From Fuerstiella sp. (GTDB lineage Bacteria > Planctomycetota > Planctomycetia > Planctomycetales > Planctomycetaceae): 64,000 nt of DNA. Position numbers and translations under genes: made by a program. The stretch is taken from positions 1 through 64,000 of the forward strand of contig JALHMY010000034.1 in NCBI GenBank assembly GCA_022843805.1. The letters run 5' to 3'. Shown piece by piece: positions 45,558 to 62,401 of this stretch (within the stretch, counting starts at the first letter, position 1; every line of letters starts with the position of its first letter). The notes below the pieces were generated by a model. That model saw only the letters and a list, made by a program, of their open reading frames with translations. It did not search any database and was not told the DNA's origin.

Positions 45558-45675
45558 TTGAGCGATGATGCACGAAGAACATGACATGGCTGGCACGATA
45601 TCTGGATCTCAGTGCCAACATTCCATCGCACGATCGATTTAATGCCATCTTCGCCGCCATGAATTCACGTGAGAA

Positions 45676-46050: not shown

Positions 46051-46116
46051 CATGCCGGACAAACTGTGATTCGGCCCTCTCTGCCCTGTGTCGGGAGCGA
46101 TACAGCGTCGGACGGC

Positions 46117-46866
46117 TCAGGGTCGTCGTCGCAGAATTTTGGACAGCAGAAATGAGCACAGCAGTATCAGGGACCATGCGCTGGAGGCAACGAAGAACCC
46201 AGTTGCAAATTGCTGTAACTGATAATTCTGAGCTGCGTCGGCTGAAATCACCTGCATGAGAATCAGCGGTTCCGACGAGGAATTCAGTCCGTGCAGCTTC
46301 GATGCCCGATCCGCAAGTAACTGTGATCCGGACAATGAAAAACCTGTTCGCCGTACAAAGACACCTGAACCGGAATTCCAGATATCCGGATGCCATGGAA
46401 GACGACTGCCGGAGTCCAGTGTTTCAGCCACGACCCATGTCTCCACAGGGTTCTGCGGACTCCATGTCCTGCTGACCAGAGGCGCGATGCGTCTCCTTCC
46501 GTAAACTCGGGATGGCCGCCCTGCCCGCATGGTCTCTTCATGAGAATACTCGGTGGCAATTTTCCACTCGGAAGTCACATGACCTGCGATCCAGTGACTA
46601 CCCGGTATTTTTCCGGTCTGATCCAGAGGTTCGACAGTACCTGTGACTGGGATCTCTGATTTCAGGCCTGGCCACAAGGTCACGACAGAGAACAGTCCGA
46701 TCGCAGGAAATATGAGTCCAGGCCTGCCGCGTGCAACAAAGAGACCGAGCGGTACTCCAGAAAGGAATACGGCCATCAAAGCGACAGGATGGATATAACA
46801 GACGGCAATCGCACCGAACGCGATCTGCAGGGCAATTGCCGCATATCCCAAAGTCAGAGTTCTCAT
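46117..46866 (-). CDS. Membrane protein of unknown function
   Basis: A 249-residue protein with two or three N-terminal membrane helices (about 5-65), a soluble stretch of about 150 residues, and a C-terminal helix (about 222-243, ATGFFVASSAWSLILLCSF). The soluble part contains short beta-rich pieces such as PVETWVVAETLDSGSRLPW. Topology suggests the soluble part is in one compartment with both ends in the membrane. No family recognised. It follows the PEP-CTERM gene on the same strand by about 50 bases. Confidence 0.6.
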   Translation of the reverse strand: MRTLTLGYAAIALQIAFGAIAVCYIHPVALMAVFLSGVPLGLFVARGRPGLIFPAIGLFSVVTLWPGLKSEIPVTGTVEPLDQTGKIPGSHWIAGHVTSEWKIATEYSHEETMRAGRPSRVYGRRRIAPLVSRTWSPQNPVETWVVAETLDSGSRLPWHPDIWNSGSGVFVRRTGFSLSGSQLLADRASKLHGLNSSSEPLILMQVISADAAQNYQLQQFATGFFVASSAWSLILLCSFLLSKILRRRP

Positions 46867-46920
46867 TGCGGTGACATTTTGGCGTTCAAAAACGACCGCA
46901 GCGGCATGGAATAAGGTGCT

Positions 46921-47682
46921 TCAAATACGGCTGTCGGATTCTGGATTTACAGCTGCGCCAGAGGATCGGAATCGCTTCGATTTCCAAAGCAGGGCCACAA
47001 CAGAACCGACAGTCAGAAAGGCAACGGTGGATGGCTCAGGAACTGAAACGCCGGCGACACCCATGGAGTAGTCGTTGTTAAAAGCATTCGCGAAGTTATA
47101 ACTTAGAAAGCCTGCGTTAATGAAGCTGTTGCTGTTGTTTCCACTCGGGAGCCCGATTGCATTGGCCTTACGAGTCGTTGAAACATACGACTTGAAAACC
47201 GATGCATTGTCAATTCCAACCAGTGGAGAAACTGACAGCCAGTAGGTACCCGCCGCGAGGCTGACATCGAGCCCGGTCACTTCAATCCTGTACTCCGGGA
47301 AGCCTGGCGACGGATTCGTGCGGCCATTGCTCGTTTGAGTGGCAGCACTGATCCCTGAGGCAATCACGGTTCCGCTGTTACCAGCTGACATACCCGAACG
47401 AATAGACCATGATGCCTGCGTGACTCCCGTTATCTGCATGGAGTTATTCGACCATACTCGCTGGACCTTCCAGCCTGCCGGGTTCGTAACAACAAAATCA
47501 TCATAAACGTTCATCGAACCGCGGTTCGATGTTTCCTGGTTGACTGTTCCCCCTCCGCTTGACCCAATTTGTCCGATAGAGACGTCACCATTGTACCAAA
47601 GAATTGTGTCTGCACAGGCCGATCCGGAAACCGGTACGAAGCAGCAAATGACGATTAGAATAGACCGAACTGATGAGTGCAT
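46921..47682 (-). CDS. PEP-CTERM anchored secreted protein
   Basis: A 253-residue exported protein. Signal peptide about 1-24 (ILIVICCFVPVSGSACAD). The body is a beta-sandwich-like secreted domain (WSIRSGMSAGNSGTVIASG, and FPEYRIEVTGLDVSLAAGTY). The sorting signal at the C-terminus reads SVPEPSTVAFLTVGSVVALL and ends with KSKRFRSS and a further polar tail. The start at 47682 is chosen because it places the signal peptide at the N-terminus; 48 more open codons upstream look non-coding. Confidence 0.82.
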   Translation of the reverse strand: MHSSVRSILIVICCFVPVSGSACADTILWYNGDVSIGQIGSSGGGTVNQETSNRGSMNVYDDFVVTNPAGWKVQRVWSNNSMQITGVTQASWSIRSGMSAGNSGTVIASGISAATQTSNGRTNPSPGFPEYRIEVTGLDVSLAAGTYWLSVSPLVGIDNASVFKSYVSTTRKANAIGLPSGNNSNSFINAGFLSYNFANAFNNDYSMGVAGVSVPEPSTVAFLTVGSVVALLWKSKRFRSSGAAVNPESDSRI

Positions 47683-47885
47683 GGTGGAGTCCTGACTCGA
47701 AAGTGTTTGTCTGTGCATCATTATGATGGTATTATGTCCAAAACCCGGGTGCAACAATTTGATTTTCAATTTTTCGGGAACTGCGAATTTCTCGCCTGGA
47801 ACCCTTCTGCGAATCACACCGAGCACCTGTCTCTGTCAAAAAATGCTGAGGGAATTCTGCCGACAAATTGAACGGAGCAGATGGC

Positions 47886-48848
47886 ATGAAATGTACTCTG
47901 GTTTTTCGGCCGAATCGTTCTGCAGGCCCCGTCATGCGAATGACTGGCTATGATGCGGTTATCAGTGTGCTGATTACGTTCATCATGGCGATGTTGCTGA
48001 CGATTGGTGCACAATTATTTTATTGGCGAACTGAGTCTTCTGAGCGGAACGGATCGGCTGGAGCGAATATCGGGCATCATGTTGTGTTTGGAGGGATGGC
48101 CAGCAGTTCGCCGGAACTCGGGAATACATCGTTAATGTCCTTAATAATGACTCCCGAGAACAGGGGTGAAGGCGAATTGGAGGATCCTCACACCGGACAG
48201 GTGATGGAGCCGTCTGATTTGTCGCAAATTCAGGTGGAGTTGCACTCGGATCAATCGGTTGCGGCGAATGCAGTGCCGGAAATTTTTGATGCGGGTGATT
48301 CCGCATCACGTCCGGGCGCCGCTGGAGTTTCGGGGCTTCAGGCCGGAGCAGTCATGGGTGGGCGTGGTCGACTGCTTTCTGATGTCGCTCGGTCAGAGCG
48401 GGCGCAGAGTCGACAGCATCGCTGGGTTATTGAGTTTCCCGGAAGTTCTGTTGGAACTTACTCGCGTTTGCTGGATCATTTTGGAATCGCGATCGCCGTA
48501 TCATATGCGGGGACCGACCGTGTCATGGTTCTGGGTCCGATAAGTGGTGCGACTCCTGTCGCGATGGAGCTGTCGGATATCTCGAAGACGTTTGATACTG
48601 AGATGTCGGTAAGCTGGGGCAGCGAGTATCGTGAGGAAATGGATCGGGCATTGGTCCGGAGTGCCGGGTTATCGGTCGATGGGGCGTCGATTACGTTGTT
48701 GTATCCAACGAAACTGGTGGAGCAGATGGAAAAGCTGGAGGCTGAATTCTCGGGCCGATCTGTCTCATCGATCCGGGCGACGTATTTTGCCTTCGAGGTG
48801 GCAGAGCCTGGGTTTAGGCTGGTGGTTCGAAGACAGACTACAAAGTAG
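47886..48848 (+). CDS. Single-pass envelope protein A, candidate transducer
   Basis: A 320-residue protein with a cytoplasmic N-terminus, one membrane helix at about 24-46 beginning GYDAVISVLITFI, a linker of about 130 residues rich in Gly/Ser/acidic residues, and a C-terminal globular domain (about 178-320). This domain is shared with the next gene: RWVIEF, YSRLLDHFGIAIA, EEMDRALVRSAGLS, LLYPTKLVEQMEKLE, IRATYFAFEV and FRLVVRRQ. The architecture resembles TonB/TolA (N-terminal anchor, long linker, C-terminal domain), and it precedes ExbB and ExbD genes. The TonB SxxxH motif is not seen in the helix. The ATG at 47886 follows GGAG at nine bases. No named family. Confidence 0.7.
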   Translation: MKCTLVFRPNRSAGPVMRMTGYDAVISVLITFIMAMLLTIGAQLFYWRTESSERNGSAGANIGHHVVFGGMASSSPELGNTSLMSLIMTPENRGEGELEDPHTGQVMEPSDLSQIQVELHSDQSVAANAVPEIFDAGDSASRPGAAGVSGLQAGAVMGGRGRLLSDVARSERAQSRQHRWVIEFPGSSVGTYSRLLDHFGIAIAVSYAGTDRVMVLGPISGATPVAMELSDISKTFDTEMSVSWGSEYREEMDRALVRSAGLSVDGASITLLYPTKLVEQMEKLEAEFSGRSVSSIRATYFAFEVAEPGFRLVVRRQTTK

Positions 48849-49034
48849 CCAGTCCGCCCGTTTTTCCAGATCGAAGCCGTTTTTGACTCGTCGGGCGGTA
48901 GAATGCCGGGTCTGGCGACCAAACAGTGCTTCAGTTCGTTGACATGTCTGTCGACGAATGACTAGCATCATCCGCTGCCTGTCTGTTTCCGCACATGTCT
49001 GGGGGCTGGAAAGTCTCCACTGTCGAGATCCGAT

Positions 49035-49961
49035 ATGTCTTCGGCCGCTTCAAAACCGCCGTCATCCCGGCGTCAAACCGGCACTGAGCCAGTGCGAACT
49101 CCGCACATTAAGCTGACACGTTACGACATTATGTCGTCGGCATTGATTTCGGCTGTCGGGATGCTCGGCCTGACTTTGATAGTCCTGATAGCGATCTGGG
49201 TGGCCAATATGCTGCCGACTCAGGTGTTGCTTGCCCCGATTATGACGGCTGGTGACGGAGGCTGGGAAGACGGGGTCGAAGGAGCAACTCCGGATGTGGA
49301 ATCTCCGGAAGATCCGACGGATGATCCGTCCGTTGCGGAAGATATGTCGGACGTGACGGAACTGATGGAAATCACTGATCCGGTTGTTGAAGTGTCTGAT
49401 ACGGCAGCGCAACTTGTCGAGCCTACGGAATACTCGGGCGAGAAGAATACTGGAAATCCCGGCAGTGCGGAGGGGACCGGCGGACGTCCTTTGGGAAGTG
49501 GCGGGCCGGGTCGTGGGGGCGCGAAGCGGGATCAGCGATGGTTTGTGCAGTTTGCCGAAAAGGGAAACCTCAAAAGTTACGCTCAGCAGCTCGACTTTTT
49601 TGGAATTGAACTGGGTGCTTTGTTTTTAAGTGAGGGCCGTCTGGTGTACCTGAAGAATGTCAGTCAGGATCAACCGGTGACCCGGGAAGTCACGACGGGT
49701 GACGCGGAAAAGCGACTGTTTATGAACTGGGAGGACGGGGATCGCAAAGAGGCGGACGCCGAGTTGTTTCAGAAGGCGGGTGTTGATGCGAGGCAGGCGG
49801 CGATTCTGCATTTCTATCCGGACGCGCTGGAGCAGCAAATGGCAAGGCTGGAGCTGTCATATGCGAATCGTCCATCCGCCCAGATTCTCAGGACATATTT
49901 TGAGATTCGACGAAGCGATGACGGTTTTGAGTTTGTCGTAACCAGTCAGAAGCTCAAATAG
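49035..49961 (+). CDS. Single-pass envelope protein B, paralogue of A
   Basis: A 308-residue protein of the same design: basic N-terminus, membrane helix at about 34-58 beginning RYDIMSSALISAVGM, an acidic linker (many Asp/Glu/Pro) to about 165, and a C-terminal domain (about 167-308). The shared blocks are RWFVQF, YAQQLDFFGIELG, KEADAELFQKAGVD, ILHFYPDALEQQMARLE, ILRTYFEIRR and FEFVVTSQ. Both proteins share the motif YDxxxSxLI at the membrane entry, a possible ExbD/ExbB contact. The tandem pair implies duplication with specialisation, as in systems with two transducers. The 186 bases before it hold no other gene. Confidence 0.7.
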   Translation: MSSAASKPPSSRRQTGTEPVRTPHIKLTRYDIMSSALISAVGMLGLTLIVLIAIWVANMLPTQVLLAPIMTAGDGGWEDGVEGATPDVESPEDPTDDPSVAEDMSDVTELMEITDPVVEVSDTAAQLVEPTEYSGEKNTGNPGSAEGTGGRPLGSGGPGRGGAKRDQRWFVQFAEKGNLKSYAQQLDFFGIELGALFLSEGRLVYLKNVSQDQPVTREVTTGDAEKRLFMNWEDGDRKEADAELFQKAGVDARQAAILHFYPDALEQQMARLELSYANRPSAQILRTYFEIRRSDDGFEFVVTSQKLK

Positions 49962-50018
49962 TTTCGTGTTGGTCGCCCGGATTTGTCAGGCTTCATGGAA
50001 TCAAAGATTGTTTAAAAT

Positions 50019-50750
50019 ATGGACCAGGTTGCAGGATTATCGATGGTAATCAATTCTTTTTTGAGTCCCGGGATGCAGAGTCTTGCGCAGATGAATGTCA
50101 CTGCGATACTGACATTCGCGGACTCGGCAATTTGGGTTGCCATTGCACTGGCAGCGGCAGTTGGGTTTTACTGCATTGTTCTGCTGACTCGCCGCGTGAA
50201 GCAGAAAGGTTTCCCGGGACAGGCTGCGGAACAGGCTTTTGTTGATGATGTAACAGAAAGACTTGCGAAGAATGATTTTGACGGTGTGGTGCAGCTTTGT
50301 GACACGCCTGAACTATGGTCGCGAGCTGTTCCGCAGCTGGTTCAGATTGGCATGCAGAATCGCGAGCTTCCTGTGAAAAAGATCAAGCAGCTTCTGGGGC
50401 AGCGTTTCGAGCGTGATATTCTTGCGAATCTGGAGAATACGGCTTCCTGGGTGGCAACCATGATCAAGATCGCTCCGATGCTCGGGCTGCTGGGTACGGT
50501 GGTTGGGATGATCAATGCGTTCAAGAAAATTGCTGGTGCTGCCGATTCGGGAATTGATCCGGCGGCGCTGGCGGGCGACATTAGTTTTGCGTTATGGACT
50601 ACGGCCGCGGGTCTGGCAATTGCTATTCCTCTGCTGACCATGGGAGCCTCGGCGTCAGTGAAAATGGGTAAACTTCAGGAGTCTGTTCGCGAGAGTCTGA
50701 GTACCATTCTGGATGAGCTTGAAGCGGCAAAGGTGCGAGTGGGACGGTAG
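50019..50750 (+). CDS. ExbB/TolQ/MotA-family proton-channel protein
   Basis: A 243-residue inner membrane protein of the ExbB/TolQ/MotA superfamily. The first helix is at about 32-55 ([21 protein letters not shown]), then a cytoplasmic region, then the two characteristic helices: [20 protein letters not shown] (about 152-171) and [20 protein letters not shown] (about 187-206). This pair, with conserved Gly/Thr, forms the proton path with ExbD. It is not of the flagellar type by size and context. ATG 50019 is the longest start; ATG 50043 has a better ribosome-binding site (AGGA) and would give 235 residues. Confidence 0.92.
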
Positions 50751-50876
50751 GTGGAATCAAGTATTGTACATTGTCAGGAAATGATCGCGGGCGGAAGAAT
50801 GACGATGAGATTGTCGGTTCTGCATTCAGATGTTCCGGTGTGAATCTGACACGAGAAATTGGCAGGAGCAGAGTCT

Positions 50877-51311
50877 GTGTTCGACGATGATGGTGGTGGC
50901 AGTAAAAAAAAGGGGGGCATTGGAGAGGCCGATCTGGATATTACTCCAATGATCGATGTGACTTTTCTGCTGCTGATTTTTTTCATGGTGACGTCGACCA
51001 TGCAGGGAACTCCTGACCGCGATATTCCTGTGGCGAAATCCGGAAATGCGAAGAGTCCGTCGGGTATGCTGGAGCTGATTGTTGCGGCCCCTGTTACTGA
51101 GGGAGGAACGGCTGAGCTGATACTTGACGGAAAGCCGACGACGATGGATGAAGCGAAAGCCCAGATCGCATCGGAAGCGTCAACGGGCGACCTGGAGATT
51201 ATGATTCTGGCGGAGCGGCGAGTTCCCAGTGGGTTCATTGGCGATGTGGAGGCGATGCTGGCGGAAGTGGAAAATGTGACGTACCACTTTGGTGTTCAGG
51301 AAAAGCATTAA
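50877..51311 (+). CDS. ExbD/TolR-family protein
   Basis: A 144-residue protein with the typical layout: short cytoplasmic N-terminus, one helix containing the proton-carrying aspartate (Asp27 in LDITPMIDVTFLLLIFFMV), then a periplasmic domain of about 95 residues ending at NVTYHFGVQEKH. The start is a GTG at 50877 that follows AGGAG by eight bases; a TTG six codons upstream is possible. Its Asp, with those of the kinase-fused ExbD, would couple proton flow to conformational change. Confidence 0.92.
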   Translation: MFDDDGGGSKKKGGIGEADLDITPMIDVTFLLLIFFMVTSTMQGTPDRDIPVAKSGNAKSPSGMLELIVAAPVTEGGTAELILDGKPTTMDEAKAQIASEASTGDLEIMILAERRVPSGFIGDVEAMLAEVENVTYHFGVQEKH

Positions 51312-51348
51312 CGGAGTGTTTCCGGACAACTTACGTGCTGGACAAGTT

Positions 51349-52920
51349 ATGAGTGATCTGACAAACAGGACGCTGGGCGAATTTCGGCTGTTAAAGCACC
51401 TCGGAAGTGGTGGAATGGCCGATGTTTATCTGGCGGAACAGACCACACTGCAGCGGCAGGTCGCTGTCAAGGTGATGAAGCCAGCCATGATGGCCCTGTC
51501 CGGGGAAGTCATGCTGGCTCGATTTAAGCAGGAAGCGATGATGGCGGCGGGCCTGAATCATCGCAACATTGTTCAGGTCTACACCATTGGACAGGAAGGG
51601 GACCTGCACTATATCGCTCAGGAGTTTGTTCAGGGGAAGGATCTTGCCAGTATTCTGAAATCCCGCGGCGCGCCAGACCTGGCGTCTGCTCTGCACGTCA
51701 TGGGACAGGCGGCGGCGGCGCTGAAGGCTTCGGGTGAGGCGGGCATTGTCCATCGCGATATTAAGCCGGAAAATATTCTGGTCACAAAAAAGGGAGAGGT
51801 AAAAGTTGCTGACTTTGGGTTGGCGCAGCTGCATGAAGGTCCTGATGAGGGAAATCTGACGCGCGAGGGGACCACCATGGGGACTCCGCTTTACATGAGT
51901 CCCGAACAGGTAAGCGGCCGCGAGCTCGATCCTCGGTCAGACATTTATTCTCTGGGAGTGACCTTTTACCAGCTGCTGTGTGGACAGACGCCGTTTACCG
52001 GAAAGACGGCGATGGCAATTGCCGTTCAGCATCTGAACAGTCCGCCCCCGCCCCTTAAGGAAAAGAACCCTGCTCTGCCTGCGGTGCTATGTCGGCTGGT
52101 GCATCGCATGATGGCTAAACGCCGTTCGTTGCGTTACCAGACAGCGGATGAAGTGCTCACCGATCTGAAGAAACTGATCACAGCTCAGAAGCAGGGCCGT
52201 TCGCTGGACCTTGTCCGTCTGCCTCGGCTGGAAGAACTGGACCGGCTTGCCGAAGAGGAAAAGTCCAAAGACATGACGGTTGTTCCTCCAAAGGGGACAG
52301 GTCTGGCTGGGAAATCGGCGACCGGCCTGGCGGCTCGTTCGAGTATTGCGGACAGTTATCCTGAGATACAGGAACTGGAAGTTGTTGAGGAGTTTGATGC
52401 TGAGGCGGAGTTTGACGGCGGGGATACATCCGGTGGTGTCCGTCCAAAGAAGGTGATACAGCACCTGCCGTCATGGGACGATGATGACGATGAAGAGCCG
52501 CCACGCAGACGGCCGGTTGAATCCGATGAAATGGACCTGACACCCATGGTGGACGTCACATTTCTGCTGCTGATTTTCTTCATGATTACAGCATCCTTTA
52601 CGATGCAAAAGTGCTTTGATGTGCCGCCTGGAAACACAAAGGACGGGGTCGCTCAGGCAACAATCGAGCCTCCGGAAACAGGGGCGGTGCGTGTGGAGGT
52701 TGACAAGGACAACGTCATGTATGTCGAGGGGAAAAAAGCGAATACATATGACGAGGTTTTGTCTCTGCTGAAGGAACAGAAGAATTCAGCCAGCGGTATT
52801 ACGGATCTTGATTTGACGGTCGACCCCGAGTCGATCCATGAGATGCGTCTTATGGTGATTGACGCGGCGACACAGGCGGGTTTTCAGAAAGTTTCCAACA
52901 AGATTCGCCCTGTTCTTTAG
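51349..52920 (+). CDS. Ser/Thr protein kinase fused to an ExbD/TolR domain
   Basis: A 523-residue protein joining two families. Residues 10-285 form a complete Hanks-type kinase: Gly-loop GSGGMADVY (19-27), Lys41 in VAVKV, catalytic HRDIKPEN with Asp137 (135-142), DFG (155-157), SPEQ (184-187) and the DIYSLGV helix. A linker of about 110 residues, rich in Asp and Glu, leads to an ExbD domain: MDLTPMVDVTFLLLIFF with the proton-carrying Asp402, then a periplasmic part (about 420-523). Topology of ExbD puts the N-terminus in the cytoplasm, so the kinase would hang from the inner face of the proton channel. Neither half shows loss of key residues. It lies 37 bases after the simple ExbD gene. Confidence 0.93.
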   Translation: MSDLTNRTLGEFRLLKHLGSGGMADVYLAEQTTLQRQVAVKVMKPAMMALSGEVMLARFKQEAMMAAGLNHRNIVQVYTIGQEGDLHYIAQEFVQGKDLASILKSRGAPDLASALHVMGQAAAALKASGEAGIVHRDIKPENILVTKKGEVKVADFGLAQLHEGPDEGNLTREGTTMGTPLYMSPEQVSGRELDPRSDIYSLGVTFYQLLCGQTPFTGKTAMAIAVQHLNSPPPPLKEKNPALPAVLCRLVHRMMAKRRSLRYQTADEVLTDLKKLITAQKQGRSLDLVRLPRLEELDRLAEEEKSKDMTVVPPKGTGLAGKSATGLAARSSIADSYPEIQELEVVEEFDAEAEFDGGDTSGGVRPKKVIQHLPSWDDDDDEEPPRRRPVESDEMDLTPMVDVTFLLLIFFMITASFTMQKCFDVPPGNTKDGVAQATIEPPETGAVRVEVDKDNVMYVEGKKANTYDEVLSLLKEQKNSASGITDLDLTVDPESIHEMRLMVIDAATQAGFQKVSNKIRPVL

Positions 52921-52986
52921 TCGACTGTTTTCAAAATGCTTTTATTCTGGTGACGAGACGAGCCAGAAACAGTCATTGTGAAATGA

Positions 52987-55900
52987 ATGGAAATCAACGT
53001 GGCAGTGCGAGAATACGACGACGAACAGGATGATGACGACTCACAAAGCGAGCGAGTGCGTGAACAGGGCCGACGTCAGTTGTCTCGTGGCCGTCTGGCT
53101 GTTCTCAGTGATCGCATTGCCGGTGGCGCAGCCCGACCGGGCGAGCAGCAGATTATTCGTTCGCCATTTGTTCTGATGCTGATCGGAGCATCTGTCGGCC
53201 TGGCGATCCTGGCCATGATTTTCTACTACATTATTAACCGGGAAGCGGAAAGTCGTCGGCTGAAGGAAGCTCTGACATCGCTGGAGCAGCGAAAGTATGC
53301 GGAAGCCGAACGACTGTTTATCAAGTATCTGGAAGTCTATCCAAAGACTCCGTCTTCAGATACCGCTCGCCTGAATCTGCACAAGTCCAGAGTTGAAAAG
53401 CACATCATGACGACCACGCCTGATGTGGTGAAGGGGAAACAGGAACTGGACGACATGCTGCGTGTCGGTGCAGAGCTGGAGGGTTTTGAGGGCGAACGGG
53501 AAACGATTCGTCGATATGCCGACCGCCTGACCTTTGCCGGTGCCCGAGTGGCTGAAGTTGTGCAGCAGAAGGAACCATTGACCGTCAGTCAGGAGTCAAT
53601 GGAGGTCTTAAGGAGGTTTTCACCGGAAACGGGTATTCCAAAAGATCGGGAAGAGATCCTGATCCGACATCAGAGAATTGCGGAAGCGGCGATCGCCAAG
53701 CGTGAAGCCTTTGATGATGCGGTTCGACAGGTCAGAGCGTTTCTGGAAGCCGGCCGAACGTCTGATGCCCTGATGGCCCGTCAGGCGTTGCTGGATCGCT
53801 ATGCCGTATTGAATGGCGACAAGGATGTGGTCGCCCTGCTGAGCGAAATTCTGAAGAAAGAGCAGGAGCTGACAGTTCGTTCCGATCTTGGCATTGATGC
53901 AAAACCTGCAGAGGCGGCACCGGGTTTGCCATCAGTTTCGCTGACTCTCAGAACTCAGGCGGCCAACGATCAGTTAAGTCAGGGAAGAACCGTGTTTTCG
54001 GTTGGGCTGGATACGATTTTTGCAGTGGATTCGGACACCGGTGAACCTCGATGGAAACGGGTGATCGGCTCCGAATCGGCCTTTGCTCCACAAATGCTGA
54101 ATGGAGCCGAGCCGGAGCTTTTGGTGCACAACAGCCGAACAAATGAGCTGATGATGCTGAGGCAGTCTGGCGGCGAGGTATTGTGGCGACAATCGGTCGA
54201 AGGAAGTCCCTCAGGCAGTCCGCTGATCCAGCAGCCTCAGATCTATGTTACAACTGATCAGGGAGAACTTTGGCAGATTTCGGCGGCCAACGGGCGGGCG
54301 ACAGCAAAGGTCCGGTTCCCGCAGAAGGTGATAGGCCCTCCGGTGCTGACTCGTGATGGGAAATCACTGCTGATCACGGGTGATCAGATGATGGTCTATA
54401 CGTTAAGCGTCAGTTCTCTGGCGTGCACGGCAGTTTCGTATATCGATCATCGTCCGGGTTCCGTTGAAGTGCCGTTGCTGGCTGCTGGCGATCTGTACCT
54501 TTTGTGTGACAACGACACATCTGACAAGTGTCGCCTTCGGATGCTGGCGATGGATGCCTCTGGTCAGCTTACGGTGAAGAGTACGGATTTTGTTGACGGG
54601 CATGTTCGTGATCCCGCCCTTCTTTATGGCACGAATCTGTTTGTTCCTTCTTCGCCGCAGCGAGTAACCGCGTTTCGGGTCTCCCCGGACCCAGCTCAGC
54701 CGCCTCTGTCGCTTGTCGGAGCGAATCAGCTGGAGGATGGTGAGCAGACCGGAATGTTTCTGCTTGCCGGGCCAGGCAATCAGTTATGGCTGGGAGGACG
54801 CGACCTCAGAAAATTTCGTGTCACGACCAATTCGGTGTTGCTGGAACCCGGGTTAACGGGAGAGGGCATTCATACTCAGCCGGTTCAGTTTTTGGATGAG
54901 GGAGTGTTCCTGACGAGTCGCCAGAAGACGTTGTCTTCAGTGTTCTTCACCAGAGCTGATCGGGAGCAGATGAAGGGGCTGTGGCGAACAGTCGTTGGGA
55001 CGAATGTTGTTGCGCTGGGACCATCCACAGGCAATCAGTCGCTGCTGGCCGTGAGTGATTTTGGAGAAGTCTTTCGCGTGCCCGTGTCGATGCTCACAAG
55101 TGGCGGGTTTCTGCTTGAATCGGTCAGTAGTTTTCGTCTGCCGGACAAGCTGGCCTCATCCGTTGGTGGATTGACTCTGGCCGACGGTCGCCTCGCGGCG
55201 TGGTGTGGAGCGCCGGAGCCGGCCGTTTGGACGTTTAGTGTCACGGGACAGCTGGAACGCAAATGGACGATGCCTGATGCACCTCAGCTTCCGCCTGTTG
55301 CGATTGCTGCCGGAGCGGTTTTTGCGATGCCGGGACGACTGCACCTGACGGCAACAGCTGGAAATACTGTTGCGGAAGATTATCGGGCGTCCCAGGGCGC
55401 AGAACAGCAGGCCACATGGAAATGTCTGACAGCGCTGAGCGATACTCAGGTGCTGGCGATCAATTCGGAAAATAAGCTCGTTCGAGTCGAATATCGGGGC
55501 AGCCCCCGGCCTCAGCTGGCCGAGCTGAGTGTGACTCAGATGGAGCGGCCGGTTGAGGTGAGTCCGGCTGCATCGATGGGGCTGCTGTGTGTGGCGACGG
55601 CCGACGGACGGCTGATCATGATGCAGTCTTCAACTCTGGAGGTTCTGGCGGATATCGATTTGGGTGGTGTTCCCAGCAAGTCTCCGGTGATTGCCGGAAA
55701 TCGAGTGTTTGTGGAAATCGCCGGCCAGACACTCCGATGCTTTACATTTGATAACACTCTTCAGCCGACCGGGCTGGTTCAGCTGGACGGATACACTCTG
55801 GCGGGCGCCCCGGTTCCTCTGACGAATGGATTCCTTATTGCTCGTTCGGATGGACTGGTCATGCGACTAACCAGTGAGGGGCTGCCTTCCGACCGCCAGC

Positions 55901-56010
55901 TGCACCTTGGGCAGACACTGAGCCGGGGACCGGTGCAGATTGCAGATCAGTTTGTGGCTGTTGCGGTCGATGGAAGTCTTTACCCGCTTCCAATGGAGTT
56001 GACTCAGTGA
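52987..56010 (+). CDS. Membrane-anchored protein with helical repeats and PQQ-like propeller
   Basis: A 1007-residue protein. An acidic cytoplasmic N-terminus (about 1-58) is followed by one membrane helix at 60-83 and a helical stretch with TPR-like features (RKYAEAERLFIKYLEVYP). From about 330 to the end the sequence is a beta-propeller of the PQQ/BamB type; blades read TIFAVDSDTGEPRWKRVIG, GGEVLWRQSVEGSPSGSPL and later copies such as SSTLEVLADIDLGGVPSKSP. In this topology the propeller is periplasmic. Residue patterns do not predict PQQ binding, so a protein- or ligand-binding role is likelier. Its stop overlaps the next gene's GTG start. Confidence 0.75.
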   Translation: MEINVAVREYDDEQDDDDSQSERVREQGRRQLSRGRLAVLSDRIAGGAARPGEQQIIRSPFVLMLIGASVGLAILAMIFYYIINREAESRRLKEALTSLEQRKYAEAERLFIKYLEVYPKTPSSDTARLNLHKSRVEKHIMTTTPDVVKGKQELDDMLRVGAELEGFEGERETIRRYADRLTFAGARVAEVVQQKEPLTVSQESMEVLRRFSPETGIPKDREEILIRHQRIAEAAIAKREAFDDAVRQVRAFLEAGRTSDALMARQALLDRYAVLNGDKDVVALLSEILKKEQELTVRSDLGIDAKPAEAAPGLPSVSLTLRTQAANDQLSQGRTVFSVGLDTIFAVDSDTGEPRWKRVIGSESAFAPQMLNGAEPELLVHNSRTNELMMLRQSGGEVLWRQSVEGSPSGSPLIQQPQIYVTTDQGELWQISAANGRATAKVRFPQKVIGPPVLTRDGKSLLITGDQMMVYTLSVSSLACTAVSYIDHRPGSVEVPLLAAGDLYLLCDNDTSDKCRLRMLAMDASGQLTVKSTDFVDGHVRDPALLYGTNLFVPSSPQRVTAFRVSPDPAQPPLSLVGANQLEDGEQTGMFLLAGPGNQLWLGGRDLRKFRVTTNSVLLEPGLTGEGIHTQPVQFLDEGVFLTSRQKTLSSVFFTRADREQMKGLWRTVVGTNVVALGPSTGNQSLLAVSDFGEVFRVPVSMLTSGGFLLESVSSFRLPDKLASSVGGLTLADGRLAAWCGAPEPAVWTFSVTGQLERKWTMPDAPQLPPVAIAAGAVFAMPGRLHLTATAGNTVAEDYRASQGAEQQATWKCLTALSDTQVLAINSENKLVRVEYRGSPRPQLAELSVTQMERPVEVSPAASMGLLCVATADGRLIMMQSSTLEVLADIDLGGVPSKSPVIAGNRVFVEIAGQTLRCFTFDNTLQPTGLVQLDGYTLAGAPVPLTNGFLIARSDGLVMRLTSEGLPSDRQLHLGQTLSRGPVQIADQFVAVAVDGSLYPLPMELTQ

Positions 56011-58619
56011 TCAGGACTTGCAGAGTTTTTTCACCGTTTATCGCGATGGCCCTGTTTGCTGCAGTCGCACGTCCGGCAGTGATCCGGGCTCAGGACGAGC
56101 GACCGGATGTCAGCGCGCTCCCGCGACTGGAATCCCTGGCAGTGCCTTCTCTTGTTGCGATTAAGGAAGCCGACGCCAAAGACAAGGCGTTTGACTGGAT
56201 CGTTCTGAAAACGGACAATGCCGTGATTGTCTGTAATCCTCTGTATCCGCGTCCTGACACGCTGAAGAAGATTGAGGAAGAGCGAAAACAGCTGGAGGCG
56301 CTCAAGCCGAACAGCGCTGAGGAACGTGAAAAAAGGTCTGCAAGGCTTGAGGAGCTGAAGCGAGTCACTCTGACATTGCCGGGTGATACGGCCGAATACA
56401 AAATTCCCCCTTCGCAGATTGATCAGATCATCCTGTTTGAGGATCTGGTGCTGCAGCGAGTGGATCAGCTGCTGGACGCGGGCGAGATTCGCTCGGCCTA
56501 TGATCTGATTCTTATGGTGGAACGGGAGATCCCGAACTGGGAGAAGACTCGTCCCAGGTTTGAGCGATTACTGCTGACGGAGTCAAAGATCAGGGGGGAC
56601 GCCGGTGACATTTATGCGTCACTGGCGCTGCTGGATGAGCTTGCCGCACTGAATATTAACAACCCTGATCTGCAGCCACGGTTTGGTGAGATTGTGGGAC
56701 AAATGATTGCTGAAGCTGCAAAGGACGGTGATTATCGTAAAGCTCGTTTTCTGATGGGGCGGATTGAGCGTCATTTTCCTCAGCACCCTGAATCGACTGC
56801 ATGGAGAGAAAAACTCAGTCAGCAGTCGGCAGCCAAACTGGGTGAAGCGGTACAGGCAGCTCAGGAAAAGAATTTTGCTCAGGCGTCCCTGCTGGCTCAG
56901 GAAGCCGATCGAATCTGGCCAACAACAGGGAATGCTCGGGCGACGTTTGCACAGCTGACTGCGCGTTACCAGGTGCTGCGAGTGGCTGTGGAATCGTTCA
57001 GCGGGGAAAAGAAGATTTTCCCTGTAATAAATGAGGCAGTGGTGCGGCATCAGGAACTGGTTTCGGTTCCAATGTTTGAAGCATCGGCGGTGGATGAACT
57101 CACTTACTATCGTTCCAGTTTTTTTGAACGATGGGATCCGTCCGATCTGGGCCGTGAAGTGACACTGACGCTGCGGGATACCCGGCCGCACTGGCAGTCA
57201 CAACCGGTTCTGACGGCCAATCAGATTGCCGATGCTCTGGGATTACAGCTGAATCCCGAAAGTCCGCTGTTTAATGCTCGCCTCGCATCATTTGTCCGCG
57301 AGTTTTCCGTTCGGTCGCCTACGGAAATCAAGCTGAGCTTTATGCGAGTGCCATTGACCATGGAGGCATTATTTCGATTCCCGGTGATCACGCAGGCCGG
57401 TTCAGGAGTTGTTGAGTCTGCTGAACAGGCGACAGATGGATCGACTGTCGGAGAATCGACGAGCGCCGGAGCGCCGGATTCAACTGCTGAAAATTCAGTC
57501 GGTGCGGGTGATCCCGTCGTACTCTCCACCCGTTTCCAACTTGTTAAGGAAGATGCCACTCAGCGAATCTATCGGCGCTTTATTCCTGAACCGAATGGGC
57601 TGGACAACGCACAATATCATGTTGCCGAGGTGGTGGAACGACGTTATCCGGACCGACATCAGGCGATTCAGGCGATGAATCGTGGCGAGGCTGAGTTTCT
57701 GACAAGCGTCCTGCCGTGGGAAATTGATGGTTTTCGTGCGTCTGAAACCCTGACGGCCGTGAAGAAGGCTATACCGTCGACGCATGTGATTATATTCAAT
57801 CCGCTTTCAAAGAATGTGGGCGGGGCTCAGGTGCGAAGAGCGCTATCGATGGCAATCGACCGGGAGTCGATTCTGAAGAGCGTGGTGTTACGGGATCCGC
57901 AGATGAAGCACGGGCGTCCCACAAGTTCCGTATGGAGGCAGGCCAGTTATGCGACAAATCCGATCGAACAAACGCCTCCCTACGATATTCGACTGGCTTA
58001 TGCACTGCGATTTGCTGCCGAGCGACAGTTGCAGATTGCTGAACTGCAGAGACTTGAGCCTGCAGCTCGAGAGAAGGCAAAGGCAGCAGGTGAAGAATTT
58101 AAGAGCGAACTGTTCCGCGCTTCAACCAATGTCGACTACATCAAACTTCCATCGCTGCGGATGATTGTAGCGCCTGATCCGGTGTCGAAGGCTGCTGCCG
58201 AACGTATTAACGTTTACTGGGAAAAGATCGGCTTGCAGGTTCAGCTGATCGATGGAAGCCAGTCTGGTGAACCGGCGCCGGATTCGGACTGGGACATGAT
58301 GTATCGGCAGGTCAGCATGGAAGAGCCGCTGCTTGACTTATGGCCCCTGCTGACAAACGATCCTCAGATGGATGTTTTGCGACTGGAATCGTTCCCTGAC
58401 TGGATGCGGCAGGAACTTATCAATCTGGATTATGCGGGCAGCTTTATCGATGCTCAGAGAAGGCTTAATGATATTCATCGACACATTGCCGCACAGGCCT
58501 TTGTGATACCGCTGTGGGAAGTTGACGACTACCTGGTGTTTCAGAAAACAGTTTCAGGTTATTCAGCAGCCCCGCTATCCACTTATCAGAATGTAGAACG
58601 ATGGACGGTGCGGCCATGA
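56007..58619 (+). CDS. Exported TPR plus family-5 solute-binding-protein fusion
   Basis: An 870-residue exported protein starting at a GTG that overlaps the preceding stop. Signal segment about 10-28. Residues about 130-340 are helical TPR-like repeats (IRSAYDLILMVEREIPNW; DYRKARFLMGRIERHFP). Residues about 350-870 resemble the family-5 (peptide/nickel-type) extracellular binding proteins: VLTANQIADALG, VRRALSMAIDRESI, MKHGRPTSSVW, and the end SDWDMMYRQVSMEEPLLDL. No permease or ATPase genes lie nearby, so it is probably not part of an ABC importer and may sense a ligand for the motor. A Ser/Thr/Glu/Ala-rich insert near 460-500 is unusual for the family. Confidence 0.75.
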   Translation: MIRTCRVFSPFIAMALFAAVARPAVIRAQDERPDVSALPRLESLAVPSLVAIKEADAKDKAFDWIVLKTDNAVIVCNPLYPRPDTLKKIEEERKQLEALKPNSAEEREKRSARLEELKRVTLTLPGDTAEYKIPPSQIDQIILFEDLVLQRVDQLLDAGEIRSAYDLILMVEREIPNWEKTRPRFERLLLTESKIRGDAGDIYASLALLDELAALNINNPDLQPRFGEIVGQMIAEAAKDGDYRKARFLMGRIERHFPQHPESTAWREKLSQQSAAKLGEAVQAAQEKNFAQASLLAQEADRIWPTTGNARATFAQLTARYQVLRVAVESFSGEKKIFPVINEAVVRHQELVSVPMFEASAVDELTYYRSSFFERWDPSDLGREVTLTLRDTRPHWQSQPVLTANQIADALGLQLNPESPLFNARLASFVREFSVRSPTEIKLSFMRVPLTMEALFRFPVITQAGSGVVESAEQATDGSTVGESTSAGAPDSTAENSVGAGDPVVLSTRFQLVKEDATQRIYRRFIPEPNGLDNAQYHVAEVVERRYPDRHQAIQAMNRGEAEFLTSVLPWEIDGFRASETLTAVKKAIPSTHVIIFNPLSKNVGGAQVRRALSMAIDRESILKSVVLRDPQMKHGRPTSSVWRQASYATNPIEQTPPYDIRLAYALRFAAERQLQIAELQRLEPAAREKAKAAGEEFKSELFRASTNVDYIKLPSLRMIVAPDPVSKAAAERINVYWEKIGLQVQLIDGSQSGEPAPDSDWDMMYRQVSMEEPLLDLWPLLTNDPQMDVLRLESFPDWMRQELINLDYAGSFIDAQRRLNDIHRHIAAQAFVIPLWEVDDYLVFQKTVSGYSAAPLSTYQNVERWTVRP

Positions 58620-58708
58620 TGCCCGGATTTTGTCGAGTTGCGACCTGGTATAACAATCCTGGCGGGAACATGGGATTTCGTCGAGGTCATTCGACCCTGC
58701 ACGGGATA

Positions 58709-60379
58709 ATGAAACGAACTCCGCTGTTCGCGATCTGTCTTGCACTCGTGCTGATGAAGACCGAAGGTGCATGGTGTCAGGAGCAGGCAGGAACGACTTC
58801 CGCTGAAACACGTGCTGCAGCTTCAGTGCCGAATTCGGCTGAGGCAGGTGCAGCGACCTCGGAATCCACTGCTCCGGCAGTTGCAGTCCCGCTTCCACTG
58901 CCACTTCAGCCTTATCTGGTCACAGTGGAGATCGCTGTGAGTACGCCGGGGGCATCGCAGCTGGACCACGATGTGCTCTTGCGGGATGTTAACACTGCAC
59001 TGGAACGGATGTATGGCCAAATGTGGTCCCGTGATGTTCGAATCTCCGACTGGCTGTTGCCAGGCAGTGAATCGCAGATTGAGCGGATTCCCGCGGAGGA
59101 ACTGGGTAAGCGTTATTCGCTGAAAGATGCTCAGAAAGTGATGCTGGTGGCAGTGGAGGCGGCTGACGGTGGCTGGAAAGTTTGTTGTCGTGAATATGAT
59201 CGTCGAATCGAGGAACTGACGCCAGTTCTGGCGGAAGTGACTTACGACCGCCGTTCAATTGCCGACGTCGCCGTCAGGCTTATGAAGAATTGTTTTCGGC
59301 CTGTCCTGCTTCTGACGGGAGCCGCAAAAGGCACTGATGAGCTGGAATTTTATTTGCAGGCTGGTCAGCTGGTCCCGCCGGATCCCAGTGCTCAGCAAAT
59401 TGCAGAAGGGGATGTGCTTCGGCCGTTCTTGAGGCACCTGGATCGCCGGGATCCTCAAAAACTCAAACAGCTGCAGAAGCTGGATCTGACCTACATCCGG
59501 GTGACCGAATTTAACCGCGAACTGACCCGAACGGGACTTTCGCCCGAAGATGCGGAAGTGACGGTCGAAGGAGCATCCCCGGATGAGACGACTGTGTTTC
59601 AGGACAGGAGTCATGTGAAGGGAGTACTCATATCGCACGGTCTGGCGCCTTTTGGAGGACGCGGTCGCAATGTCGAGCAGCTGGCACTGCGGCAGCGGCC
59701 CATGGCGACATCCAGTCGCGTTCGGCTGGTATTGAACCTTCGACCGGACAGGCCTTTGGTTTCTCATCGTGTTGATCGCGTATCCAAGCTGCGATATAAG
59801 GATGAGAACAGCGATGTTCCCGTAAGGATGCTGAGTGATCGTAATGGCGAAGTTGAGATGGTGGTCGATCCAAAGAATCCCACATTCTGGCTTTATGTTT
59901 ACAGTGGCAGTCTTCTGCTCGCTCGAGTTCCCTATGCTCCTGGGCTGCTTGCAACAGATACAATAAAGCTGCCGGACGACAGTATTCGACTTGGGGTAGA
60001 AGGTGAACTCTACCTGTTTCGGGATCAGCTTATTGATGTGGTTGCTCAGCGGGCCGTCTTTAAGGGAATGGCCAAACAGGCTGCCGCCGCTGGTGACACT
60101 GCGAAACTCGAAGAGGCAGTAAAGGGTCTGATTGCACTTCCGGGCAGGAAAGAATTTGAGCTGCGTCTGAATGCGATTCAGGTGCCGGCCGTTAAACGAG
60201 CCGAAGAGCTTCGAAATGGCAGTGCAAAGAGAACAGTCAATAAGCTGTGTGCCGCAATGGCAAAATCTCTTGGTGACTTCTTCAGCGCGGAGAAACAGGT
60301 AAAGGAACTGGAAGAGGTTGAGCGGCTGCGCAATCTTGCAGAGCAGCGGACAGGGGCGCCTGCCGCCAGTCAGAACTAG
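58709..60379 (+). CDS. Secreted protein of unknown function, last gene of the Exb cluster
   Basis: A 556-residue protein. The ATG at 58709 gives a clear signal peptide (MKRTPLFAICLALVLM, cleavage near 24); a frame open from 58601 would overlap the upstream gene and start without one. A Ser/Thr/Ala/Glu-rich linker (about 30-65) follows. The rest has mixed structure with beta-sandwich-like parts (about 290-420, for example VRLVLNLRPDRPLVSH) and a helical C-terminus ending VERLRNLAEQRTG. I recognise no family. Its 3' end, including the last 20 codons, has been copied twice downstream in tandem. Confidence 0.65.
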   Translation: MKRTPLFAICLALVLMKTEGAWCQEQAGTTSAETRAAASVPNSAEAGAATSESTAPAVAVPLPLPLQPYLVTVEIAVSTPGASQLDHDVLLRDVNTALERMYGQMWSRDVRISDWLLPGSESQIERIPAEELGKRYSLKDAQKVMLVAVEAADGGWKVCCREYDRRIEELTPVLAEVTYDRRSIADVAVRLMKNCFRPVLLLTGAAKGTDELEFYLQAGQLVPPDPSAQQIAEGDVLRPFLRHLDRRDPQKLKQLQKLDLTYIRVTEFNRELTRTGLSPEDAEVTVEGASPDETTVFQDRSHVKGVLISHGLAPFGGRGRNVEQLALRQRPMATSSRVRLVLNLRPDRPLVSHRVDRVSKLRYKDENSDVPVRMLSDRNGEVEMVVDPKNPTFWLYVYSGSLLLARVPYAPGLLATDTIKLPDDSIRLGVEGELYLFRDQLIDVVAQRAVFKGMAKQAAAAGDTAKLEEAVKGLIALPGRKEFELRLNAIQVPAVKRAEELRNGSAKRTVNKLCAAMAKSLGDFFSAEKQVKELEEVERLRNLAEQRTGAPAASQN

Positions 60380-60890
60380 AGGCGACACGCAGGCGAGTCT
60401 CTCCGAGACTCGCGCATCCAACGCCCTGGGCTTGAAATCAACGCCCAGGGCAATCTGCCGCCTTTTCCAGCGTCTCGGAGAGACGCTTCTACGTGGGGCC
60501 AGGCAAGTTGTTGAGCGGTTGCGCAATGTGGTGGAGCAGCGAACAGGTGTGTCTGCCGCGGGTCAGAACTGGAGGCAACACGTAGGCGAGTCTCTCCGAG
60601 ACTCGCGCATCACCGCCCTGGCTTGAAAACAACGCCCAGGGTAATCTGCCGCCTTTTCCAGCGTCTCGGAGAGACGCTTCTACGTGGGGCCAGGCAAGTT
60701 GTTGAGCGGTTGCGCAATGTGGTGGAGCAGCGAACAGGAGAGTTTGCCGCGGGTCAGAACCAGAGGCGACACGCAGGCGAGTCTCTCCGAGACTCGCGCA
60801 TCACCGCCCTGGCGTGAAATCACACCCCAGGGTAATCTGCCGCCTTTTTCAGCGTCTCGGAGAGACGCTTCTACGTGGGGCCAGGCAAAA
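60318..60890 (+). repeat. Tandem repeat that duplicates the preceding gene's 3' end
   Basis: TTGAGCGG(C/T)TGCGCAAT recurs at 60318 (inside the gene), 60511 and 60702, giving periods of 193 and 191 bases. A fourth, partial unit ends near 60890. Each unit contains the last 20 or so codons of the gene, then two inverted blocks, CGAGTCTCTCCGAGACTCG and AGCGTCTCGGAGAGACGCT, both self-complementary. The gene's TAG stop (60377-60379) is TGG in the second unit and CAG in the third, so only the first copy stops there. 60891-61142, before proB, shows no gene. Confidence 0.88.
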
Positions 60891-61142
60891 GAGCCTGATT
60901 GGCATCTCGAGTATGCGTCTGGCATCCACCATGTGAGTGAGCGGCGACAATCGTGCAGTTCCGCTCCCGTAGAATCTCCAAATCTGCTATGCTGACATGT
61001 TTTCATGCGGCCGTAGTGCGGAAATTTCTGAAGGCAACGGCTTGAAATGAGAATTACAGCAGCGTCCGCAGGCTGCCGCTGAGGTTTCGTTCATTCCTGT
61101 TTCGTTCGTTTCATTTGGTACAGGTGATTTCGAGAGATTTGT

Positions 61143-62279
61143 ATGCAAGACCTGGTCAGACAGGAAGTATTTCAGGCGTGTCGGACTGTGATCGTCAAGA
61201 TCGGCACGAATGTGCTTACAACGGAGGATGACCGGCTTGACAGCGACCGGATTCAGTGCATCTCCGCTCAGATCAATCGCATTATTCAGACAGGCCGGCG
61301 AGTTGTCCTGGTTTCCAGCGGCGCTGTGGGTGCGGGTATTGGCATTCTTGGACTGCATCGTCGTCCGGAATCCCTTCCTGAACTCCAGGCTGCGGCAGCG
61401 ATCGGACAACCTCATCTGATGCGGACATGGGACGATGCTCTTCAGCGCAACGGATATCGAACTGCGCAGGTCCTGCTGACCGGCAATGATTTTCGTAATC
61501 GTCAGCGTTATCTGAATGTCCGAAACACCATCCGTACGCTGTTTGATTTCGGTGTTGTTCCAATTGTAAATGAAAACGACACGGTCAGCATTAAAGAGAT
61601 CGCGGTGGGCGACAACGACCAGCTGGCCTCCATGCTGGCTACTCTTTTGCCCAATCCGTTGCTTGTTATTCTTTCAGGCATCGCAGGACTTTACGATGGT
61701 CCTCCTTCGAATCCGGCCAGCAAGGTCATTCCACTGGTACCGCGTCCGGATGAATCACTTTTGCAGCTGGCCGCGTCGGAACAGAGTACGCGAGGCCGCG
61801 GCGGGATGCCGAGTAAACTTCGGGCGATTCTGTCGGCGACCAGTATGGGAGAGGCTGTCATCCTCGCCAGTGGTCGCAGCGATACGGTGTTGGATGACGT
61901 ACGCACAGGAAATGTCACCGGTACATTATTTCTTGCCGCAGGTGGTTCCGTTCCGGCGTGGAAACGCTGGATAGGATTTACAGCGGCTCCTGCCGGAGTA
62001 CTGGTGCTGGATGACGGAGCTTGTCGAGCTGTTCGGGACGGCGGTCGATCGTTGCTGGCCGTGGGAATTACCGAGGTTCAGGGCGACTTTGAACAGGGTG
62101 GTCTGGTTGGCCTTAGAACGAAGGAAGGCATCGAATTCGCTCGAGGGCTGGCCAACTATTCTTCTGAAGAAATTCGAAGTATTTATGGCCGACGATCGGA
62201 TCAGATGGCGGCCAGTCTGGGGCATGTCCCTTACAGCGAAGTGATTCACCGTGATAACCTCGCACTCACGGGGAAGTAA
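61143..62279 (+). CDS. proB: Glutamate 5-kinase with PUA domain
   Basis: A 378-residue cytoplasmic enzyme of proline biosynthesis that phosphorylates glutamate to gamma-glutamyl phosphate. The kinase domain (amino-acid kinase fold) shows VIVKIGTNVL (about 15-24), VLVSSGAVGAG (about 54-64), NENDTVS (about 142-148) and DNDQLASMLA, plus GRGGMPSKL near 219-227. The C-terminal PUA domain, about 280-370, includes GACRAVRDGGRSLLAVGI. Length matches PUA-containing ProB. proA is not adjacent in this window. Confidence 0.96.
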   Translation: MQDLVRQEVFQACRTVIVKIGTNVLTTEDDRLDSDRIQCISAQINRIIQTGRRVVLVSSGAVGAGIGILGLHRRPESLPELQAAAAIGQPHLMRTWDDALQRNGYRTAQVLLTGNDFRNRQRYLNVRNTIRTLFDFGVVPIVNENDTVSIKEIAVGDNDQLASMLATLLPNPLLVILSGIAGLYDGPPSNPASKVIPLVPRPDESLLQLAASEQSTRGRGGMPSKLRAILSATSMGEAVILASGRSDTVLDDVRTGNVTGTLFLAAGGSVPAWKRWIGFTAAPAGVLVLDDGACRAVRDGGRSLLAVGITEVQGDFEQGGLVGLRTKEGIEFARGLANYSSEEIRSIYGRRSDQMAASLGHVPYSEVIHRDNLALTGK

Positions 62280-62401
62280 TGGATTGGGCGAAAATTCCTG
62301 GAATCGTTCCCATAAACGGGGAAGTCACGCATCCGTGATCGTCAGAATCGTTGCAGTCGGCCAGAACCGCCCAGACGCGGCAACAGAATTTCCAGATAGA
62401 A

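Follow-up and report, generated by a model that had tools for sequence, protein, structure and literature searches.

Within a 64,000-nucleotide stretch of Fuerstiella sp. DNA (GenBank assembly GCA_022843805.1, contig JALHMY010000034.1, positions 1 to 64,000; hereafter the window), eight consecutive genes on the + strand, which we call g1 to g8, encode two TolA-shaped proteins, an ExbB-type ring subunit, two different ExbD-type subunits, one of them fused to a Ser/Thr kinase, a membrane-anchored beta-propeller and two predicted secreted proteins. We conclude that this putative operon probably encodes a Tol-like, proton-driven envelope machine that is specific to one planctomycete class, probably Planctomycetia, and that, in the window's clade, bears a kinase on its second ExbD (ExbD2). 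A preliminary description of the window had reported the eight same-strand open reading frames (ORFs), all of which were located again, and Pfam matches back its assignments of ExbB, ExbD, the kinase-ExbD fusion, the PQQ-like propeller and the family-5 binding domain.

The motor-type subunits and their putative proton path

The ring subunit of the putative motor is g3 (50019..50750, +), an ExbB/TolQ-type protein (Pfam MotA_ExbB, 84 bits). It is followed by g4 (50859..51311, +), an ExbD/TolR-type subunit with Asp33 in its transmembrane helix (Pfam ExbD, 53.8 bits), and by g5 (51349..52920, +), which joins ExbD2 to a Ser/Thr kinase in a single ORF (Pkinase, 163 bits; ExbD, 62.5 bits). The kinase domain of g5 spans 51385..52140 (+) and its ExbD domain, with the transmembrane residue Asp402, spans 52522..52896 (+). 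The MotA_ExbB and ExbD matches of g3, g4 and g5 all lie above the gathering scores, and, among solved structures, ExbB and ExbD chains come closest in sequence to g3 and ExbD; the best NCBIfam rows for the motor proteins are tolQ and tolR, far under cut-off.

Residues T148, T181 and E176 of Escherichia coli ExbB presumably take part in the proton path. The two pore threonines correspond to T160 and T195 of g3 and are invariant in 14 alignment rows. The transmembrane Asp of ExbD is invariant in the 16 rows of the g4 alignment and the 14 rows of the g5 alignment, and by a strict motif it is found in 67/71 ExbD1 rows and 72/73 ExbD2 rows. The view that these genes specify an Exb/Tol-type motor thus holds, with the proton-path residues largely kept; the position of Glu176, where they are not, is taken up below. 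Because the operon has two different ExbDs, we suggest that these would pair as a heterodimer. The whole genome has seven ExbD and eight MotA_ExbB matches, and therefore holds other such motors.

A conserved core of seven genes in one planctomycete class

The gene for the family-5 binding protein (SBP_5; g7) turned up in 163 of the 170 genomes that represent the window's family, including 129 of the 130 that are near-complete, and in 56 of 58 genera. From this survey 80 stretches were fetched, which together with the named loci and the window gave 88 distinct loci once eight duplicates had been dropped (loci, genomes and families carry L, G and f numbers). The full set g2-g8 is in view at 58 loci, four of them outside the window's family, and is collinear at 56; the two exceptions, L050 and L051, have ExbB-ExbD-ExbD2 as a block in reverse orientation. 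Another 20 stretches (L108-L127), taken from other families, were read separately: all seven genes are collinear in L108, L110, L112 and L116, and the core genes have a spread-out arrangement in L118. A query with the kinase-ExbD protein returned 20 loci from named genomes. Fifteen of these (L008-L022), from planctomycete metagenome-assembled genomes, have neighbouring genes in the window's order as far as each contig extends, and in the five others (L023-L027) the kinase alone matched.

The class marker is g2 (49035..49961, +), a TolA-shaped protein with one transmembrane helix, an acidic Gly-rich linker and a conserved C-terminal domain. It was found in 251/297 genomes of the class, and in 225/261 of the near-complete ones. 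In a draw of 294 genomes from the phylum, all 21 listed class members matched g2, the list of non-matches, ordered by kinship, opens with other classes, and outside the class there was a single, marginal match among 273 genomes. Five genomes of the window's family (G428, G414, G439, G386, G393) carry SBP_5 and g8 without adjacent motor genes; g2 lies elsewhere in each of them, as does an ExbB of the same type, matched at E 1e-43 to 1e-82. In some families, the ExbB/ExbD genes are separated from the rest of the cluster. At L122:4542-6614 (-; family f94), ExbB-ExbD-ExbD2 adjoins a divergent g2 encoded on the opposite strand, and neither a propeller nor an SBP_5 protein was detected nearby.

The kinase fusion and the cluster might in principle be accidental neighbours without a common function, as the genome has 109 kinase matches and, according to the accessible part of a survey, planctomycete kinases are numerous and kinase fusions common (PMC11032199). 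We consider this extremely improbable and set it aside on synteny: the gene order recurs across other genera and families, so that the cluster is more than chance, and the five split genomes still hold g2, ExbB and g7. The comparison instead points to g2-g8 as an old unit with a core of seven genes. Co-occurrence across genomes had been named beforehand as the point on which a single-system reading could fail; the genes do co-occur, and that reading survives for seven genes of the eight, with g1 outside the core.

The remaining gene, g1 (47886..48848, +), also encodes a transmembrane helix, a linker and a C-terminal domain, and is a diverged tandem paralogue of g2: the two proteins are 26% identical, and the g2 profile matches g1 at 4.6e-27. 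Neither has any Pfam or NCBIfam match. Beyond the window, a second g2-like gene adjoins g2 only in L049 and in L013, of which L094 is a duplicate, and five genomes of the family (G303, G304, G309, G342, G411) have two g2 matches each, some of them possibly fragments or elsewhere in the genome. Since a second g2-like gene is seen in so few relatives, we regard g1 as accessory, and it may be dispensable. The two proteins had been introduced as TonB/TolA-shaped paralogues; the paralogy and the shape are upheld, and the likeness to TonB and TolA is one of shape only.

In some relatives a gene of about 540-635 amino acids lies just before g2 (L047:15185-16966, -; L046:2421-4049, +; L029:1343-3121, +). 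Its product has HEAT repeats and sub-threshold matches to prenyltransferase/squalene-cyclase toroids. Homologues occur in 29 fetched stretches from several families, and there is none in window positions 44001-64000; this gene may be a lost eighth member.

The kinase on ExbD2

The kinase of g5 has the motifs HRDIKPEN and DFG, and its catalytic Lys, HRD and DFG are invariant in 14 alignment rows. Across 23 fused loci, a VAVK-type motif is present in 19, HRDIKPEN in 20 and DFG in all. The best model for this domain is the PASTA-kinase model NF033483, at 329 bits and thus under its cut-off of 450. The kinase domain with its HRDIKPEN and DFG motifs is what g5 shares with PASTA-type receptor kinases (PknB/Stk1); its membrane part is an ExbD motor subunit rather than PASTA or another extracellular sensor.

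A kinase on one of the ExbDs was part of the preliminary description, and so far it stands, with the kinase motifs intact. As a defining feature of the system, however, we rejected the fusion: in L028-L047 ExbD2 is without a kinase (L042, which does not extend as far as that gene, is excluded), as it is in most relatives. The N-terminal CxxC-CxxC of ExbD2, a zinc-ribbon pattern, is found in 48 of 49 kinase-free proteins and in none of the 23 fused ones. On an 85-row FastTree of the operon, the kinase fusion is a single change (support 99), and the kinase-fused clade stands beside lineages that bear an FHA domain (fork support 81). Because L008-L022 had come from a kinase-fusion query, we took the frequency of the fusion from the SBP_5-based survey, in which it occurs in six of the 52 sampled genera of the window's family. 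Together, these comparisons indicate that the kinase fusion is a derived, late addition to ExbD2.

Two of the loci at which the kinase alone matched (L023:9710-11503 and L024:9854-11524) encode kinases that share about 57% identity with the fused one. These end in a transmembrane helix and a non-ExbD part, and ExbB/ExbD are not nearby; kinases of this type are a possible source of the fusion. In a word search of open PubMed Central papers we found no description of an ExbD-kinase fusion, and we are aware of no kinase attached to any other ExbD/TolR motor subunit. By a term search, ExbD goes unmentioned in the main text of the planctomycete kinase survey (PMC11032199).

One alternative is a receptor-kinase complex without motor output, in which SBP_5, the propeller and g8 would sense a ligand or envelope stress and ExbB/ExbD would be a membrane scaffold relaying to the kinase. 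The sensor-like periplasmic domains fit such a complex, as do the absence of an outer-membrane partner from the operon and the match to NF033483, which describes a family of envelope-sensing kinases. Nevertheless we think it unlikely, given that the proton-path residues are conserved and that most lineages retain the whole set of genes without any fused kinase.

Kinase links elsewhere in the operon

The propeller protein g6 (52987..56010, +) is membrane-anchored and of the PQQ type (PQQ_2, 54.5 bits), with a short N-terminus. In the kinase-free relatives of the window's family this protein is about 200 residues longer, and the extra N-terminus is an FHA-fold domain. Pfam FHA scores over its cut-off in L028, L029 and L127 and not in L043, and the other FHA labels rest on a purpose-built profile made from ten of these domains. 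Both ExbD2 and the propeller are visible at 70 loci. A fused kinase without FHA occurs at 21 of them (L022 was entered by hand), FHA without a fused kinase at 38, neither of the two at 11, and both together at none. Among the 52 sampled genera of the family, FHA is found in 36, the kinase in the six already mentioned and neither in six; four are not visible. Because the fusion arose once or nearly so, the absence of loci with both is weak evidence that kinase and FHA are exchangeable. The FHA domains keep their Asn in 45/47 cases and their His in 36/47. Those of L028, L029, L043 and L127 also have sub-threshold matches to YscD_cpl, a cytoplasmic family of type III secretion systems, so the FHA-fold domains may be assembly domains.

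Outside the window's family, we found the operon tied to kinases in other ways. At L108 (family f103) the propeller protein also contains a complete kinase as a fusion, and at L118 (family f98) the propeller carries a kinase-like domain that is degenerate, with the usual Lys absent by eye. At eight loci of six other families (L044-L047, L109, L110, L112, L116), the N-terminus of the propeller is a domain of about 65 residues. A profile of this domain aligns with the N-terminal domains of eight operon-linked kinases (hhalign probability 98.6, E 8e-16), and apart from these propellers its matches at E <0.01 were confined to kinases, the fusion at L108 and a single propeller-like ORF of L117. Finally, five loci from four other families (L046, L047, L108, L109, L112) have an orthologous kinase gene on the opposite strand, 3-48 bp beyond the end of g8. 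These are five of the 13 loci outside the window's family with g8 and the sequence behind it visible, a count that omits L045, where the contig ends; L111 has 1.2 kb behind g8.

In a quick kinase tree, for which 30 of the genome's 109 kinase matches supplied 31 background domains, the five kinases behind g8 group together with a support of 99 and apart from the ExbD2-fused kinases, and the propeller-fused kinase of L108 falls outside both clades, on an open fork. Judged by this tree, at least two kinase lineages, and probably three, were recruited to the operon. The kinase found behind g8 in L034 belongs to a different lineage. In family f95, the gene immediately upstream of g2-ExbB-ExbD-ExbD2 encodes a kinase (L114:15605-16654, -), and no propeller was detected nearby.

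Periplasmic proteins and comparison with known systems

The predicted secreted protein g7 (56007..58619, +) has a signal peptide, recognized by eye, a helical (TPR-like) half and an SBP_bac_5 domain (66.4 bits, about 57126-58310) that weakly resembles peptide/opine binding proteins of the AccA type. Also predicted to be secreted, g8 (58709..60379, +, with an ORF from 58601) matches no accepted family, its sole Pfam row being sub-threshold (Neurokinin_B, E 0.061). At about residues 102-236 (about 58904-59308) it has a domain that resembles TolB-N, FlgT, CsgG and LpoB, and this is followed by a beta-sandwich at residues 368-460 and a helical bundle. With Foldseek the best match of the domain is TolB (E 1.5e-4), with TM-scores of just 0.15-0.24, and VIA superimposes it on TolB (7mx5; Z 8.4, 3.0 A over 110 residues) and on FlgT (Z 9.0, 4.2 A over 131 residues). 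The likeness is at fold level and comes from a partial model with a mean pLDDT of 63.

TolB_N was found in none of ten chosen genomes and in nine of the 294 phylum genomes (eight over cut-off), none of these among the 21 class members; in both searches together, it was detected in none of the 24 class genomes covered. OmpA-domain proteins occur elsewhere in all ten chosen genomes, with none among the eight operon proteins. By Pfam, g1 and g2 contain neither TonB_C nor a vWA domain, and none of the eight proteins is a receptor or an ABC permease; the look for TonB receptors covered these eight proteins and not the rest of the genome. The preliminary description had stated that the operon lacks an outer-membrane receptor and a Pal-like lipoprotein and is not a simple TonB or Tol-Pal system, and we agree on both counts. 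A plain TonB system was rejected, as g1 and g2 have no Pfam match to TonB_C and lack the SHLS motif, and so was plain Tol-Pal, as TolB_N was not detected in the 24 class genomes and the locus has no Pal lipoprotein.

A looser TonB-like arrangement would have the motor open an unlinked outer-membrane transporter, with g7 binding the substrate and the kinase reporting uptake. The SBP_5 domain, given its weak similarity to peptide/opine binding proteins, is what such a system would need, but with no TonB_C in g1 or g2 and no receptor or permease encoded in the operon we hold this to be distinctly unlikely. What the operon shares with TonB-ExbB-ExbD is the proton-motor subunits; it is without the C-terminal domain, the motif and the receptor of that system.

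The likeness to Tol-Pal (TolQRA, TolB, Pal, CpoB) is broader and takes in a TolQ/TolR-type motor, a TolA-shaped protein, a propeller, TPR-like parts and the TolB-N-like domain of g8. Here, however, TolB and Pal are missing, the propeller and the TolB-N-like domain are on separate proteins, and the operon has two different ExbDs, an SBP_5 protein, kinase or FHA-fold modules and a g2 without SHLS. The nearest described arrangement is that of the vWA force-transducer clusters of the Planctomycetes-Verrucomicrobia-Chlamydiae (PVC) group, where a tolQ-like gene and a pair of unlike tolR-like genes are accompanied by a TPR gene and by the gene for a transducer built of a transmembrane helix, a linker and a domain (PMC12204202). 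That transducer has vWA and SHLS, whereas g2 matches no vWA family and lacks SHLS, and the accessible part of the account mentions no kinase (PMC12204202).

The AglRQS-Glt machinery of Myxococcus also has one TolQ-like and two TolR-like proteins together with TPR proteins, and its inner-membrane protein GltG combines a cytosolic FHA domain with a TonB-domain end, according to the accessible part of its description (PMC3169522). The same set of one TolQ-type, two TolR-type and TPR proteins, with an inner-membrane FHA protein in the relatives, makes it conceivable that the operon encodes a similar gliding, secretion or surface-transport machine. Yet we identified no Glt family protein, GltG ends in a TonB domain where the relatives' FHA protein ends in a propeller, and neither SBP_5 nor a kinase fusion is reported in that part of the description (PMC3169522). 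Near-universal presence in the window's family, moreover, fits a housekeeping role better than motility, and we judge a gliding-type machine highly unlikely.

A proposed envelope machine and the evidence against it

In the Tol-like envelope machine that we favour, g3 would form an ExbB-type ring, and g4 and g5 would supply two different ExbD-type pore helices as a heterodimer, presumably in a 5:2 assembly of five ExbB and two ExbD. Force would be transmitted outward by g2, and g6, g7 and g8 would be the periplasmic part, acting on the outer membrane or the wall. In the window's clade the cytoplasmic end of ExbD2 bears a Hanks-type kinase in place of the zinc-ribbon pattern of the kinase-free relatives, which would put a kinase on the motor axis. 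As to the direction of signalling, we favour a kinase whose action on the machine, or on its partners, would depend on whether the motor is engaged; the preliminary suggestion that the motor might report its state, or a ligand, to the kinase is likewise hypothetical. The sequences themselves show which genes are present and in what order, their conservation, the motor and kinase residues, the single change for this fusion on the operon tree and further kinase links that draw on at least one other kinase lineage; from these we infer motor action, cargo, force output, an envelope role and phosphorylation.

Several observations weigh against this proposal. At the position of ExbB E176, g3 has a Phe that is invariant in 14 rows. 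Judging from sequence, g2 is without the SHLS motif of TonB and TolA: SH occurs in the transmembrane helix of one of 60 readable rows (66 rows in total) and any His in eight of the 60, and neither g1 nor g2 of the window has a His inside the helix, g2 having one immediately before it. The C-terminal domain of g2 was predicted with fair confidence, and a fold search with it returned nothing clear (best E 0.1, best Z 3.2), a result that would neither show a new fold nor exclude TolA or TonB folds. The TolB-N likeness of g8 is modest, at Z 7.5-8.4 against 7-8 for unrelated models, and the fold is a common one. In the FHA domains the canonical Arg is mostly absent, with an Arg after IG in 10/41 readable rows, and phosphothreonine binding by these domains seems doubtful. 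The kinase tree, in which L082 is not firmly joined to the other fused kinases and its placement is open, requires two changes for the fusion to ExbD2. The number of kinases in the genome makes fusions or neighbours less surprising here than elsewhere. Outside the window's family, ExbB/ExbD are absent from the fetched stretches of L109, L111, L113, L115, L117 and L127; L114 has g2-ExbB-ExbD-ExbD2 with no propeller, SBP_5 or g8 in the stretch; and in families f94 and f97 (eight stretches, L119-L126, of which L125 is only 5.4 kb) g2 matches are weak and the full operon is not nearby.

The arrangement suggests a physical link between envelope work and internal signalling in the window's lineage. 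Because the same operon is tied to kinase modules differently in other lineages, its coupling to Ser/Thr phosphorylation looks like a recurrent need. A more speculative reading, which we rate as less likely than not, is that engagement or stalling of ExbB-ExbD could alter the activity of a kinase that is part of the pore-forming subunit itself, such that envelope mechanics would be read as phosphorylation, that several routes may have led to a similar coupling (a kinase on ExbD2 or on the propeller, a neighbouring kinase gene, an FHA-fold domain), and that the operon might replace Tol-Pal without TolB and be controlled by kinases.

An outer membrane is present in planctomycetes, as described in the accessible text of a Planctopirus limnophila study that includes a transposon map (PMC10632474), and how they constrict and maintain it is an open question. 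P. limnophila is a tractable member of the window's family and presumably has the operon. The operon, class-restricted and nearly universal in the window's family, is a candidate for that work, and it offers defined residues for mutation, namely the ExbD Asp and the kinase Lys and Asp. The attachment of kinase modules to one machine more than once is also a natural experiment on the control of envelope mechanics by phosphorylation. The accessible main text of the P. limnophila study mentions neither Exb nor Tol-Pal (PMC10632474), and a Verrucomicrobium study mentions neither Exb nor Tol (PMC12283558). In Rhodopirellula, exbB and exbD genes are reported to be salt-induced (PMC2754498), genes that we do not link here to this operon.

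Operon layout and flanking sequences

The intergenic gaps from g1 to g6 are, in order, 186, 57, 108, 37 and 66 bp. By ORF coordinates g6 and g7 overlap by 4 bp and g7 and g8 by 19 bp; g8 probably starts at the ATG at 58709, directly 5' of its signal peptide, which leaves a gap of 89 bp behind g7. A promoter and terminator scan of the region did no better than shuffled sequences.

Downstream of g8 lies a proB-like gene (window 61143-62279), and a proB-like gene also stands directly behind the operon at six other loci of the kinase-fused clade. Repeats flank the region at 60318-60995 and 45639-45986, visible in spurious ORF translations of intergenic DNA. Just upstream, an ORF on the opposite strand (46921-47826, -) has a signal peptide and a C-terminal end that we take to resemble a PEP-CTERM sorting signal.

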